Assembly: GCA_028688995.1 (NCBI GenBank)
Contig: JAQTXB010000003.1
Coordinates: 124,001 to 188,000, forward strand
DNA length: 64,000 nucleotides
From: Aliarcobacter sp.
GTDB taxonomy: Bacteria > Campylobacterota > Campylobacteria > Campylobacterales > Arcobacteraceae
Direction of reading: 5' to 3'
Numbering within the stretch: position 1 is the first letter of the stretch; each line of letters opens with the position of its first letter. Made by a program: the position numbers and the translations under genes. The notes under the pieces were generated by a model. That model was not told where the DNA came from. It saw nothing but the letters and a program-made list of their open reading frames with translations, and searched no databases. Of this stretch, positions 9,353 through 14,928 are shown one piece after another.

Positions 9353-9388
9353 AAATAAAATCTTTTCTTTTATGAAAGGATTTTATTT
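9353..9388. terminator. Bidirectional terminator between macB permease and fur
   Basis: A 15-bp stem (AAATAAAATCTTTTC at 9353-9367 and 9374-9388, one G-T pair) with a 6-nt loop has A and T runs on both sides. It separates the convergent efflux operon and fur. Confidence 0.8.
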
Positions 9389-9393
9389 AAAAT

Positions 9394-9864
9394 CTATTTT
9401 TTTAAAGAGTTAGAGTCTTGGCAATTCTCACAAATTCCATAAATACTCATTATGTGTTCTTTTAATATGAAATTGTTTTTTTCAGCAATTTTAATTTGAT
9501 TTAATTCAATTAAATCATCTGTAAACTCTATAATTATCCCACATGAAGTGCAAATTAGATGATCATGGTGTTTTAATCGATTTAACTCATATCTGATAAC
9601 TCCATCGCCAATATCTAATTGATTTACTAATTTCATATCATGAAAAAATTTCATTGCCCTATAAACAGTTGCAATTCCAATTGATACATTAAAATTTTGT
9701 TTAATTTTATTTGAAATCTCTTCAGCTGTTAAGTGTTCTTCTGAAAAATATAAAATTTTTAATATATAATCTTTTTGAATTGAATTTTTCAGACCTATTT
9801 TTAATACGTTATTTTTGAAATTTTTTAAAAAAATATCAAATGATAATTCTTGTGAATCTTCCAT
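9394..9864 (-). CDS. fur: Fur-family ferric uptake regulator
   Basis: The 156-residue protein has a winged-helix DNA-binding domain (about 20-90, with IGIATVYRAMKFF as the recognition region) and a C-terminal metal domain with HHDH (99-102) and two CxxC pairs (C105/C108 and C145/C148) that would hold structural zinc. Fur with ferrous iron represses uptake genes; PerR or Zur are alternatives in this family. The surrounding tonB, hemP and siderophore receptor genes and several Fur-type boxes make iron-responsive Fur the best call. Its ATG overlaps the stop of a 47-codon gene upstream (TAATG), so its translation is probably coupled to that gene. Confidence 0.88.
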   Translation of the reverse strand: MEDSQELSFDIFLKNFKNNVLKIGLKNSIQKDYILKILYFSEEHLTAEEISNKIKQNFNVSIGIATVYRAMKFFHDMKLVNQLDIGDGVIRYELNRLKHHDHLICTSCGIIIEFTDDLIELNQIKIAEKNNFILKEHIMSIYGICENCQDSNSLKK

Positions 9865-10007
9865 TATATAAAGCCTTTTATTAAAATAAAAATAATACCC
9901 AAAGAGAGAGTAAAACTATATAACTTCCATAAATTTTTATGTATTTTAACATTTTGTTTATATAACAATGAATTAGTTAAGTCTTTTTGATTTAATAGCT
10001 CTTTCAC
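9864..10007 (-). CDS. Small membrane protein (47 aa) coupled to fur
   Basis: A short ORF starts with GTG (10007-10005) and is preceded by GGAG at 5-nt spacing, an excellent ribosome binding site. It encodes 47 residues: a charged N-terminal half (KELLNQKDLTNSLLYKQNVK) and a C-terminal hydrophobic segment (about 31-47, SFTLSLGIIFILIKGFI) that could be one membrane helix. The TAA stop shares its last base with the fur ATG. I do not recognise the family. It may be a true small protein of the iron regulon or a leader whose translation controls fur. Confidence 0.6.
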   Translation of the reverse strand: MKELLNQKDLTNSLLYKQNVKIHKNLWKLYSFTLSLGIIFILIKGFI

Positions 10008-10060
10008 AGCAGCTCCTTTTATTGATAAAGTATATTATCATTAGTTATCTTAAAGAATAT

Positions 10061-10075
10061 TGATTGTAATTATCA
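10061..10075. promoter_or_regulatory. Candidate Fur box upstream of fur and fumC
   Basis: TGATTGTAATTATCA matches the 7-1-7 Fur consensus in 12 of 14 arm positions (right arm perfect). It lies 54 nt before the 47-codon gene that leads into fur and 112 nt before fumC. It could mediate autoregulation of fur and iron control of fumC. A second partial match (TTATCATTAGTTATC) begins at about 10036. Confidence 0.5.
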
Positions 10076-10186
10076 TTTTAAGACTGAAATGAATAATTTA
10101 TCTATATAAGAAAATATAAAATTAAATGACAATTAAGACAATATATACAATGATGATAACCTGTATATCATATTTAGGAATAAACA

Positions 10187-11584
10187 ATGGATTTTAGAAT
10201 AGAAAAAGACACAATGGGTGAAATAAAAGTTCCAAATGACAAATATTGGGGTGCACAAACACAAAGAAGTTTAGAAAATTTCCCGATTGGTGATGAAAAA
10301 ATGCCAAAAGAAATAATTGAAGGTTTTGCATATTTAAAAAAAGCATGCGCAATTGTAAATAATAAATTAGATAGATTAGATAAAACTAAAACCGATGCTA
10401 TTTGTATAACTTGTGATGAAATTATTCAAGGAAAATTGGCAGATGAATTTCCTTTAGTTGTTTGGCAAACAGGTTCAGGAACTCAGTCAAATATGAACGT
10501 AAATGAAGTAGTAGCAGCAAGAGCAACACAAAATTTAGGAAAAGATTTTAGAGTTGAAAAACTTATTCATCCAAATGATGATGTAAATAAGGGACAAAGT
10601 TCAAATGATACTTATCCAACTGCTATGAGAATTGCTTTTGTTTTAGATATTCAAAAAAGGTTAATTCCTGCAATAAATGTTTTAAAAACAACTTTTGAAA
10701 ATAAATCAAAAGAGTTTGAAAATATTGTAAAAATTGGAAGAACACATCTTCAAGATGCAACGCCACTAACTCTTGGACAAGAGATTTCTGCTTATGTTGA
10801 AATGTTAGATAAAGCTTTAAATCAAATTGATGATAGTATGAAATATCTTGTTGAATTAGCAATTGGTGGAACTGCTGTTGGAACGGGATTAAATTCTCAT
10901 CCAAATTTTTCACCAATGGTTAGTGAGGTATTAAATATTTTAACTGGAACAAAATATGAGTTTAAATCTCATCCAAATAAATTTCATGCTCTAACTGCTC
11001 ACGATGCAGAAGTAGTTTTAAGTGGAGTATTAACAGCACTTGCTTCAAATCTTATGAAAATTGCAAATGATATAAGATGGCTTTCTTCAGGCCCTAGATG
11101 TGGAATTGGAGAAATTAATATTCCTGAAAATGAACCAGGAAGTTCAATCATGCCTGGAAAAGTAAATCCAACTCAAAGTGAAGCTATGACAATGGTTGCT
11201 GTTCAAGTTATGGGAAATAATACAACAGTTAGTGTAGCTGCAAGTCAAGGGAATTTTGAGTTAAATGTGTTCAAACCTGTAATTGCATTAAATATTTTGC
11301 AGTCAATTAGGCTTTTAAGTGATACGATGCTTGCATTTAACGATAATTGTGCAGTTGGAATAGAACCTAATTTAGTAAATATCAATAAATATTTAAATGA
11401 TTCACTAATGCTTGTAACTGCACTAAATCCATATATAGGATATGAAAAAGCAGCACTTATAGCAAAAACAGCTCATAAAAATGGAACAACACTTAAACAA
11501 GAAGCAGTAAATCTTGGAATTTTAACTCAAGAAGAGTTTGATTCTTATGTAAAACCAGAAAATATGATAAAACCTACTTTATAA
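10187..11584 (+). CDS. fumC: Class II fumarate hydratase
   Basis: The 465-residue protein is full length for FumC and contains the fumarase/aspartase signature [11 protein letters not shown] (about 318-328), plus [14 protein letters not shown] and [16 protein letters not shown]. It interconverts fumarate and L-malate in the TCA cycle in the cytoplasm. Class II enzymes contain no iron-sulphur cluster. The start is ATG after AGGAATAAACA. Its position between fur and hemP, with Fur-type boxes upstream, fits use as the iron-sparing fumarase under iron limitation, as known for E. coli fumC; this is inference. Aspartase (AspA) is a related family, but overall the sequence reads as FumC. Confidence 0.93.
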
Positions 11585-11708: not shown

Positions 11709-11843
11709 GTGAAAGAAATTAAAGATAAACAAATAGATTCAAAAGAGATTTTCGATAAAGAAAAGAGCATTGAAATTATTCATGATGGACAATCTTATTA
11801 TCTGAAAATCACTAAAGCGAATAAATTAATACTTACAAAATAA
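11709..11843 (+). CDS. hemP: HemP-family haemin uptake protein
   Basis: This 44-residue ORF starts with GTG (11709) after TTAGGTATT and ends at TAA 11841-11843. Its C-terminal half, IEIIHDGQSYYLKITKANK followed by LILTK, carries the HemP family pattern (H-x-G-Q-x-Y-x-L ending K-L-I-L-T-K). HemP proteins are small cytosolic proteins found next to haem or siderophore uptake genes; in other bacteria they promote expression of the TonB-dependent receptor. Here the receptor gene follows after a 159-nt leader and a Fur-type box precedes, so it belongs to the iron-uptake transcript. Confidence 0.85.
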   Translation: MKEIKDKQIDSKEIFDKEKSIEIIHDGQSYYLKITKANKLILTK

Positions 11844-11851
11844 CCACAATC

Positions 11852-11972
11852 TAGCCAGCAAGAGTAAAGTTCTCCTACAAATAGCCAGCCAATTTAAGAC
11901 AAAAGTTTAAGTAATTAATTTACTTTATTGAGCTGGTGTTAAATAAATTTATTTAATTAAATTTATTTGAGA
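11852..11972 (+). promoter_or_regulatory. Structured leader between hemP and the siderophore receptor
   Basis: Two copies of TAGCCAGC (11852 and 11882) can each pair with GCTGGT at 11932-11937. The second copy extends the helix as CCAGC-CAAT with ATTG-a-GCTGG; the first can also pair TAAAG with CTTTA. The two foldings exclude each other. A further 10-bp hairpin (AAATAAATTT and AAATTTATTT, about 11941-11968) lies just before the receptor ribosome binding site. It could be an attenuator, a processing site or an sRNA. Folding was judged by eye only. Confidence 0.4.
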
Positions 11973-12002
11973 ATCACAATGATTTTCTTGGAGGAAAAGA
12001 AA

Positions 12003-14162
12003 TTGAATAAATATATCACAAGTAAAAAACATAAAAACACAAACTATTTTAAGGCATCTGTTGTAACTGCAACAGTTTTATTAATCTCGCCTGCAATGTT
12101 AAATGCAGAATCAACACTTTTATCAGATGTAAAAGTTGTTGAAAAAAGTGAAAAAACTGATTATACACAAAACTACAAAGTAGATAAATCATCTTCATCA
12201 AAAGTTACTCAAGATTTAGTTGATACTCCTCAAACTATCTCTGTAATTACAAAAAAAGTTATTGAAGAACAACAAGCAACAACTTTACAAGAAGCACTAA
12301 GAAATACGCCAGGAATTACTCTACAACTTGGTGAAAATGGTAATACAAACTCTAAAGATAATATTACAATGAGAGGTTTTGATGCTCAAGGAAGTATTTA
12401 TAAAGATGGTATTCGAGATTTAGCAAATGCAAGTAAAGATACATTTAACACAGAAGCTGTTGAAGTTACAAAAGGTGCAGTTGGTGCTGATAATGGAAGA
12501 GGTGTTTCATCTGGATATATAAATCAAGTTACAAAATCAGCTACAAATAAAGATGAAGTTTCTGGAACAGTTGGTTATAGCACGGCTAAGAATGCAAGAT
12601 TAACAGCTGATGTAAATAAAAAATTAAATGAAACTACAGGTGTTAGATTAAATGTAATGAAACAAAATGGCGATGTTGCTGGAAGGGACGAAGTAGAAAT
12701 TGATAGAACTGGAATTGCTGGTTCTGTTGCTTTTGGTATTGGAACGGCAACTAGAACAACAATTAATTATGAACATACAGAACAAGATGATGTTCCAGAT
12801 GGTGGAATTCCAACTGTGGGATTAAATGGAGGTGCACAAAAAGTTGACACTTCTAAATTTTATGGAAGTAATGATGATTATGAAAAATCTCATAGTGATA
12901 CATTTACTTTAAAATTTGAACAAGACATATCTGATAATACTATGTTTACAAACACTGCAAGATATGCAAAAACTAGACAAAGAATGTTATTAACTTCTCC
13001 ATTTAATTATAATACATCTGCAAATACTGTAGATTTAAGAATGCATGCAAAATGGCAAGAAAATGAGATATTAACAAATCAATCAAATTTTACAACAGAA
13101 GTGCAAACTGGTATGTTATTACATAAAATTAGTACGGGAATTGAATTAACAAAAGAGAGTCAACTTACAAAAAATTACACAGCTCAAAATGCTCAAATTA
13201 CAAGTTTATATAATCCAGCAAATATTTCTTGGAATAATTTATCATTTTCAGGGCAAAAAAGTGATGGTGAAACTACAACAGTGGGAGCATATTTATTTGA
13301 TTCAATAAACATTGGAGAAAAATTTATATTTACAGGAGGAGCTAGATTTGATAGATATGATACAACAAATGATATTGTTTCAAGTACATTAGTTCCTTCA
13401 ACATTAGAAGATGAGGGAACTCTAAATAGTTATAAGGCTGGTTTAGTTTATAAACCACTTGAAAATGGAAGTGTTTATATTTCAAGAGCAACAACACAAT
13501 TACCTCCAGGTGGAGCAAACTTTACTTTAAGTGCAACAACTACAAATGCAAATAATCCAAATATGGACCCTCAAAAATCAACTACAGATGAAATTGGTAC
13601 AAAATGGGATTTATTAAATAATAGATTATCTTTAACAACTGCTGTTTATAAAACGGTTGTTGAAAATGAAACTATGACAGAATCAGATGGAAGTACATCT
13701 CAAAATGGAGAAAAAGAGGTTAAAGGTATAGAGCTTGGTGTTGTTGGGGAAATTACAGATAAATGGAATGTAACAGCAGGTGTTGCAAAAATGAACACAG
13801 AATACACACAAGCTACTTCAACAAATGATGGTATGAGCTTAAGATTCTCACCAGAACATACAGCAACTTTATGGTCAACATATAAATTTACTCCTGCAAT
13901 TAATGTGGGAGCAGGGGCAAGATATGTGGGAACTCAAGATGTTAAAATAAGTACAACTTCAACTGAAGTTATTTCAAAAATTGATTCTTATGTGGTTTAT
14001 GATGCAATGGCTTCATATAAATTCAACAAAAATTTAACATATCAATTAAATGTATATAATTTAACTGATGAAGATTATGTTGCAAATATGAATAATTCAG
14101 GTAGAAGATACACTCCAGGAGCTTCAAGAAGTGGGTTATTAACACTTGCATATAAATTTTAA
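12003..14162 (+). CDS. TonB-dependent siderophore receptor
   Basis: The frame is open from 11967, but GGAGG at 11990-11994 lies 8 nt before TTG 12003, giving a 719-residue protein with a basic N-terminus and signal peptide ending near MLNA. Next come a probable TonB box (LSDVKVVEK), the plug domain (VDTPQTISVITKKVIEE, NITMRGFDAQGSIYKDGIRD, VTKGAVGADNGRG) and a 22-strand beta-barrel with a family-type C-terminal strand ending YKF. It fits the siderophore receptor group (FhuE/Fiu/PiuA-like) and would import a ferric siderophore across the outer membrane using TonB. HemP upstream and PiuC downstream support this role. The actual ligand cannot be read from sequence. Confidence 0.9.
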   Translation: MNKYITSKKHKNTNYFKASVVTATVLLISPAMLNAESTLLSDVKVVEKSEKTDYTQNYKVDKSSSSKVTQDLVDTPQTISVITKKVIEEQQATTLQEALRNTPGITLQLGENGNTNSKDNITMRGFDAQGSIYKDGIRDLANASKDTFNTEAVEVTKGAVGADNGRGVSSGYINQVTKSATNKDEVSGTVGYSTAKNARLTADVNKKLNETTGVRLNVMKQNGDVAGRDEVEIDRTGIAGSVAFGIGTATRTTINYEHTEQDDVPDGGIPTVGLNGGAQKVDTSKFYGSNDDYEKSHSDTFTLKFEQDISDNTMFTNTARYAKTRQRMLLTSPFNYNTSANTVDLRMHAKWQENEILTNQSNFTTEVQTGMLLHKISTGIELTKESQLTKNYTAQNAQITSLYNPANISWNNLSFSGQKSDGETTTVGAYLFDSINIGEKFIFTGGARFDRYDTTNDIVSSTLVPSTLEDEGTLNSYKAGLVYKPLENGSVYISRATTQLPPGGANFTLSATTTNANNPNMDPQKSTTDEIGTKWDLLNNRLSLTTAVYKTVVENETMTESDGSTSQNGEKEVKGIELGVVGEITDKWNVTAGVAKMNTEYTQATSTNDGMSLRFSPEHTATLWSTYKFTPAINVGAGARYVGTQDVKISTTSTEVISKIDSYVVYDAMASYKFNKNLTYQLNVYNLTDEDYVANMNNSGRRYTPGASRSGLLTLAYKF

Positions 14163-14164
14163 TT

Positions 14165-14233
14165 AATTCAATCCGAAAGGATTGAATTATTATTCTAAAA
14201 ATAAAATAGATTCTATTTTATTTTTAGAATAAT
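14165..14233 (+). terminator. Tandem hairpins between receptor and piuC
   Basis: Directly after the receptor stop is a 10-bp stem with a GAAA loop (AATTCAATCC, 14165-14188). It is followed by a perfect 22-bp inverted repeat (14189-14210 with 14212-14233) that abuts the ribosome binding site of the next gene. The set may terminate part of the transcripts and so make receptor mRNA more abundant than piuC, or stabilise the receptor mRNA 3' end. Confidence 0.6.
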
Positions 14234-14247
14234 AAAAAAGGAAAAAA

Positions 14248-14928
14248 ATGATTTTACATATTCCAAATGTTTTAAATAGTGAAGAATTACTTTTTTGCAA
14301 AGAGATATTAAATAGTGCAAAATGGATAGATGGAAAATTATCAGCAGGTTCACAAGCTGTAAATGTAAAAACAAATCTTCAATTAGCTTCAAATTCACAA
14401 GAATTAAATCAATTAAGACAAATTGTCACAAAGGCTTTAAATTCTAATCCTATGTTTATCTCTTCAGCTTTACCAAATCATATCATTTCTCCATTTTTTA
14501 ATAGATATGAAAATGGTGCCTTTTATGGAAATCATGTTGATAGTGCAATTTTATATGATGAAACAGTTGGAAAAAGTTTTCGTACAGATGTTTCTGCTTC
14601 TTTATTTTTTACAGACCCTGATGAGTATGAAGGTGGTGAAATGATAATAGAGGATACTTATGGCTTACATGAAATAAAACTTCCAGCAGGTGATTTAATA
14701 CTTTATGATTCAACAAGTTTACACAGAGTCGAACCAGTTACAAAAGGTGTGAGAATGGTGAGTTTCATGTGGATTCAAAGTATGATTAGAGATAGTGCAA
14801 AAAGAGAGATGTTATTTAATCTTGATACTACGATTCAAAATTTAAGAGCAAAATATCAAGAGAGTGAAGAGATTTTATCTTTGAGTATTCATTACCACAA
14901 ATTAATACAACAATGGGCAGAAATTTAA
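14248..14928 (+). CDS. piuC: PiuC/YbiX-type Fe(II)/2-oxoglutarate-dependent hydroxylase
   Basis: The 226-residue protein is the usual length of the PKHD-type hydroxylase family. The iron-binding triad is visible as NHVDS (H96, D98) and LHRVEP (H159), and R169 in KGVRMV is placed to bind 2-oxoglutarate. Members (PiuC, YbiX) are encoded beside siderophore receptors in Pseudomonas and E. coli; their substrate is not settled. ATG follows AAAAAAGGAAAAAA. The next gene begins 3 nt after its stop, so the two are co-translated. Confidence 0.9.
   Translation: MILHIPNVLNSEELLFCKEILNSAKWIDGKLSAGSQAVNVKTNLQLASNSQELNQLRQIVTKALNSNPMFISSALPNHIISPFFNRYENGAFYGNHVDSAILYDETVGKSFRTDVSASLFFTDPDEYEGGEMIIEDTYGLHEIKLPAGDLILYDSTSLHRVEPVTKGVRMVSFMWIQSMIRDSAKREMLFNLDTTIQNLRAKYQESEEILSLSIHYHKLIQQWAEI

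Follow-up and report, generated by a model that had tools for sequence, protein, structure and literature searches.

At this locus a 47-codon open reading frame (ORF) stands directly before a gene of the Fur family, and the question it raises is whether the ORF encodes a protein in its own right or a leader that serves the regulator behind it. The sequence-only reading of the window, the whole stretch of 64,000 nucleotides of Aliarcobacter DNA that was analysed, had offered both options: a regulatory leader peptide of the uof type, or an unstudied iron-regulon protein with one membrane helix. In Escherichia coli, uof is a short ORF that immediately precedes fur, its end overlapping or adjoining the fur start, and the control region contains a Fur box (PMC7867234). 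The layout here is alike, since the end of the small ORF overlaps the start of the downstream gene, fur2, in a TAATG junction whose TAA and ATG have base 9864 in common, as had been read from the letters, and a Fur-box match lies in the control region.

The small ORF and its control region

The small ORF occupies 9864..10007 on the minus strand, from a GTG start at 10007 to a TAA that ends at 9864, and its Shine-Dalgarno (SD) sequence, AAAGGAG at 10013..10019 (minus strand), is spaced 5 nt from the GTG and is identical in close relatives. The length of 47 residues, the GTG start and the GGAG at 5-nt spacing given by the sequence-only reading are thereby confirmed, and the frame, whose interruption in close relatives it had proposed to look for, is uninterrupted there. 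The C-terminal half of the protein is hydrophobic, with a best 19-residue hydropathy window of 1.99, and an AlphaFold2 model, for which the start residue was left out, forms a single long helix over model residues 13-45 of 46 (mean pLDDT 83.6). Searches of the curated families in Pfam and NCBIfam returned 0 matches at E<=1.

Upstream, a Fur-box match, GATAATTACAATCAATATT, is located at 10056..10074 (minus strand), 49-67 nt 5' of the GTG, about where the sequence-only reading had placed a box of this type. It has 15/19 identities to GATAATGATAATCATTATC, compared with 14/19 for the best of 100 dinucleotide-preserving shuffles (p<0.01). A second, weaker Fur-box-like match, AATGATAATATACTTTATC at 10024..10042 (minus strand, 13/19), contains TGATAA-N6-TTATCA and is not significant alone. 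Matches at p<=0.05 were obtained in 36 of the 39 relatives' loci, and Fur boxes are also visible beside the small ORF in genomes G059 and G054. Membership of the small ORF in the iron (Fur) regulon, with a putative Fur box in its promoter region, is supported at the level of the sequence.

The control region is also used by a divergent gene at 10187-11584, which from reading its sequence we take to be fumC, encoding the iron-free class II fumarase; a 12/19 Fur-box-like match lies just 5' of it, at 10149-10167. In relatives, fumC is separated from the small ORF/fur2 pair by a divergent gene of about 130 codons (L116 4712-5128, minus strand, and 26 other loci), which in most of them forms the far border of the promoter region and is absent from the window; its product has a hydrophobic N-terminus, and no matching family was found for it. 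The segment 3' of fumC (11709-14928) is an iron-uptake block comprising hemP (PF10636), a Fiu-like catecholate siderophore receptor (NF007349, just above the cut-off) and a PiuC/YbiX-type dioxygenase, of the Fe2+-dependent type.

Fur2 and its junction with the small ORF

The downstream gene, fur2 (9394..9864, minus strand), encodes a 156-aa protein that belongs to the Fur family by its PF01475 score (112.6 bits, cut-off 23.1), while its score against NF051891, the Helicobacter-type Fur equivalog, is 114.7 bits, below the cut-off of 200. The window genome (G000) holds five FUR-family matches above the cut-off; one of them, on contig C28, reaches a higher score (141.8 bits) and shares 49% identity with that of the window. 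A maximum-likelihood tree was built from 58 proteins, canonical Fur being represented by two of them, the C28 copy and its G021 counterpart; apart from these two, the window-type Fur2 proteins form a single clade with 100/100 support. This separate clade and the NF051891 score rule out the housekeeping fur as the identity of the window gene. The sequence-only reading was thus right that the ORF precedes a Fur-family gene, but that gene is a second paralogue and not the housekeeping fur to which "fur" would refer. Fur2 aligns with Campylobacter jejuni Fur (PDB 4ets, 6d57) over residues 6-152 (E about 5e-33) and shares its HHDH, CxxC and GIATVYR segments, although it differs in branching, within a separate clade, apart from the canonical Fur that its genome also encodes. 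Given these retained segments, Fur2 should bind a box of similar type and a metal. The gene fur2 converges with a macB-like gene, and between their ends lies an A+T-rich inverted repeat with 15-bp arms and a 6-nt loop (9353..9388), possibly a terminator common to both genes; a terminator scan requiring G-C pairs did not report it.

In most loci the stop and start codons of the pair share 1 base (TAATG or TAGTG); elsewhere the small ORF ends a few bases 5' of the fur2 start or overlaps it by eight. An SD sequence for fur2, AAAGG at 9874..9878 (minus strand), lies within the small ORF, where it is formed by the Lys-Gly codons 9 nt 5' of the fur2 ATG, and in most loci the AAAGG supplied by these conserved C-terminal codons sits 8-9 nt 5' of the fur2 start. 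Because the ribosome site of fur2 sits in these codons, the conservation of the Lys-Gly residues may in part be due to it. The fur2 start codon is GTG or TTG in several genomes. In loci that lack the small ORF, fur2 usually retains AAAGG or AAGG at a similar distance, and it can apparently do without coupling. Folding of 39 loci found no conserved RNA structure hiding the fur2 start, whose mean unpaired probability was 0.48 versus 0.46 for the whole region, with below-average openness in 20 of the 39; a sequestering structure over the start was rejected on this near-equality with the region mean. Translational coupling, as the layout suggests, is plausible. The TAATG overlap fits the coupling that had been proposed, whereas an SD of fur2's own, kept where the ORF is gone, and the lack of a hiding structure in the folded loci speak against a dependence of fur2 on it. 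Of the promoter and SD of fur's own, used independently of the ORF, that the sequence-only reading had named as a refutation, the analysis showed an SD, inside the small ORF itself, and no promoter.

Conservation and inheritance of the pair

A profile of the small protein matches 44 of 104 Arcobacteraceae genomes at E<1e-13, with 48 copies in total, and gives only weak matches in two further listed genomes. Carriers include Arcobacter caeni, Malaciobacter halophilus and Poseidonibacter lekithochrous, and the loci closest to that of the window are from Aliarcobacter MAGs. Across 397 genomes of the phylum Campylobacterota, no convincing relative was found outside Arcobacteraceae; the matches obtained there (E>=2e-4) were short, mostly interrupted by stops, and were rejected. 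Within the family, the frame is open and conserved 5' of the orthologous fur2 in most genomes possessing that gene, far above chance, and varies from 38 to 49 aa in length. A conserved motif, LYKxNxKIHxNLWKxY, in which Leu and Tyr are invariant, precedes the helix at the membrane edge, and the best conserved residues lie on the predicted cytoplasmic side and at this edge. Among seven close relatives (21 pairs), summed pS was 0.53 and pN 0.11, and the ratio stayed low after the last five codons were dropped, that is, outside the embedded fur2 SD. Because pN is well below pS along the whole ORF, it evolves as a protein, and the small ORF encodes a genuine membrane protein with one predicted helix, conserved within a single bacterial family, Arcobacteraceae.

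The pair is mostly inherited together. Of the 48 copies of the small ORF, 46 directly precede an intact fur2, and in G017, G053, G067 and G068, which have two fur2 copies, each copy has a small ORF of its own. In G017 the whole set of small ORF, fur2, MamC-like gene and P1B ATPase is present twice (L017 and L054, on contigs C61 and C132), the two ATPases each 84% identical to the same query, which may reflect a duplication or a mixed assembly. When presence of the small ORF is mapped on the Fur2 tree, 46 loci with it and 10 without it are accounted for by five changes, a pattern best read as an ancestral small ORF that was lost several times, about five, while fur2 stayed. The reverse is also observed. 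In G059, an intact small ORF with Fur boxes stands beside a fur2 remnant (47 aligned residues, 57% identity, four stops), and in G054 the small ORF stands alone with its Fur boxes, fur2 and the storage cluster described below both being absent. Both fur2 losses concern single genomes and may be of recent origin. The small ORF of G054 diverges from an operon (L115 5896-9569) whose products are, as we read them, presumably imelysin-like, cytochrome-peroxidase-like and imelysin-like; the three genes also flank the locus in G055, G063, G086 and G088 (clusters c21-c23).

In relatives, the usual order is the divergent gene of about 130 codons, the small ORF, fur2 and then a storage cluster (about 4000-11500 in L119, 5678-9769 in L116). 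After fur2, this cluster encodes a 104-aa protein weakly similar to HMA_2, a ferritin-like protein (DUF2202, just above the cut-off), two small membrane-type proteins flanking a MamC-like protein (NCBIfam MamC, E 6e-7, below the cut-off), a heavy-metal P1B-type ATPase (TIGR01525) with an HMA_2-type N-terminus, and finally a protein of 71-73 aa whose best Pfam match is DUF4405 (E 0.02, below the cut-off). Read from its sequence, the ATPase has Ser-Cys-Ala where many relatives show Cys-Pro-Cys, which we take to be the mark of the P1B-6 (FezB) type. Of the 104 Arcobacteraceae genomes, 64 have the cluster, and the ATPase and the MamC-like gene are found in exactly these. By raw genome counts, uncorrected for relatedness, a P1B ATPase is carried by 39 of the 44 genomes with the small ORF and by 25 of the 60 without it; in 32 of the 39 with both, the two genes lie within 10 kb of each other, and in four genomes (G053, G056, G067, G068) the cluster is distant from the pair. 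Given about five losses of the small ORF and 25 cluster-bearing genomes that lack it, the small ORF is therefore essential to neither fur2 nor the cluster.

Judged from family matches and published descriptions, the Arcobacteraceae cluster resembles the ferrosome (fez) clusters of D. magneticus, C. difficile and others in its P1B-type ATPase, its small protein that may be DUF4405-like (FezC type) and its putative Fur-box control. In ferrosomes, the DUF4405-like component is the cytochrome FezC (PMC10979944), and in C. difficile Fur represses FezA and FezB (PMC12574912). Beyond these clusters, Arcobacteraceae add the MamC-like protein, the DUF2202 ferritin-like protein, the HMA_2 protein, fur2 and the small ORF.

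No cluster ATPase, MamC-like or ferritin-like gene was found in the assembly of the window genome, which is 96% complete. Its gene order is macAB-like genes, fur2, small ORF, fumC, while that of G025 is macAB-like genes, ferrosome-like cluster, fur2, small ORF, divergent gene, fumC. Because G025 has the cluster within the same gene order and the window is without it, the window locus is best read as a deletion derivative in which only the pair was retained. The pair is likewise kept without the cluster in G020, G021 and, in another genus, G083, the absence being weak for G020, whose assembly is only 76% complete; with G054, the small ORF is thus retained without the cluster in five genomes. 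A pair kept in this way must either serve some purpose other than that of the cluster or be in the course of being lost, and the pN of 0.02 and pS of 0.11 between the small ORFs of G000 and G021 are too small a sample to tell whether the pair is still needed or being lost.

Function of the small protein

The explanation that we consider probable is that the small ORF encodes a Fur-controlled, single-span inner-membrane protein of the Arcobacteraceae iron regulon, first in an operon with fur2 and, in most relatives, with the ferrosome-like cluster. The Fur-box promoter region would drive this operon, with the small ORF first, fur2 second and the cluster following in most relatives. As iron falls, Fur or Fur2 would leave the box, the small ORF and fur2 would be made from one mRNA, and ribosomes finishing the former could reload on the latter through the SD in its last codons; Fur2 would then add a second, local iron control of its own operon or of others. 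By the positive-inside rule, the small protein would sit in the inner membrane with its short charged N-terminus inside, so that its conserved juxtamembrane face would point to the cytoplasm and be available for partner binding. It would act at the membrane, where its likeliest role is that of an accessory to iron transport or storage; the first guess for its partner is an iron transporter or storage component, and the second is Fur2. The ORF, its selection as a protein, the Fur box, the junction, the embedded SD, the synteny and the survival without fur2 are read directly from sequences; we infer the steps of co-transcription, coupling, topology and place of action, and any biochemical activity of the protein is a guess. 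Small single-span accessory proteins such as CydX have fewer than 50 residues and one helix, and are encoded at the head or the tail of the operon whose products they assist. The protein described here is like them in its size below 50 aa, its one predicted helix and its first place in the operon, a likeness of architecture. CydX conservation is among the subjects treated in PMC4325964.

A role confined to bringing ribosomes to fur2, in the manner of uof, would account for the one-base overlap in most loci, the strong SD of the small ORF and the GTG or TTG starts of fur2 in several genomes, and the embedded SD would partly explain the conserved Lys-Gly codons. It leaves unexplained the amino-acid-level selection along the whole ORF and the survival of the ORF after decay of fur2 in G059 and its loss in G054; moreover, lineages without the ORF keep an AAAGG-type SD before a fur2 that works, as far as can be seen from its sequence, and folding revealed no conserved structure over the fur2 start. 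A pure leader is unlikely because the small ORF outlives fur2, and we regard this explanation as quite improbable. The uof-like role suggested by the sequence-only reading is accordingly not supported as the main one by the selection and the survival without fur2, and the locus departs from uof in that the downstream gene is a fur paralogue, in that the peptide is conserved family-wide as a protein with a predicted membrane helix, and in that it outlives fur2 in two genomes, contrary to what a leader alone would lead one to expect. The other option it had named, a one-helix iron-regulon protein, is favoured by the protein-level selection, the Fur boxes, the predicted helix and the retention without an intact fur2.

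Two further possibilities concern what such a protein would serve. It could be a membrane-bound partner of Fur2, whose conserved, cytoplasmic half would bind the regulator and hold it at the membrane or tie its activity to it, as a co-translated regulator pair. The 46 of 48 copies directly before an intact fur2, the small ORF that accompanies each duplicated fur2, the intact pair where the cluster is absent (G000, G020, G021, G083) or elsewhere (G053, G056, G067, G068), and the location of the best conserved residues, at the membrane edge and in the part predicted to be cytoplasmic, would all be consistent with this; yet the ORF is kept without Fur2 in G059 and G054, and Fur2 without the ORF in about five lineages, so that we hold such a partnership to be doubtful. 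It could also be a structural part of a ferrosome-like organelle, a membrane component of the iron-storage vesicle, heading as it does the ferrosome-like operon in most relatives and occurring with a P1B ATPase in 39 of 44 genomes. However, it is kept in five genomes without a detected cluster, that of the window included, is missing from 25 with the cluster and is far from the cluster in four, and we think this unlikely. The probable explanation therefore remains the Fur-controlled inner-membrane protein of the iron regulon. A more speculative extension, which we would not expect to hold, is that the protein ties a dedicated second Fur to the iron-storage membrane state, forming a two-part, locally encoded iron regulator at the head of ferrosome-like clusters.

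Literature searches found no paper on ferrosomes in Arcobacter or Arcobacteraceae, nor on a small ORF before fur in Arcobacter. What is new here is the second Fur, the ferrosome-like operon in relatives, the small gene that outlives fur2 and the fur2 SD inside its conserved tail. The locus shows that where C-terminal residues of a small protein are conserved, the SD of the gene that follows can account for part of this. Some genomes have only the pair, others only the small gene or only fur2, each with or without the storage cluster, and together they constitute a natural experiment, at a locus in which ferrosome-like genes of Arcobacteraceae are combined with a dedicated second Fur and an unnamed membrane microprotein.
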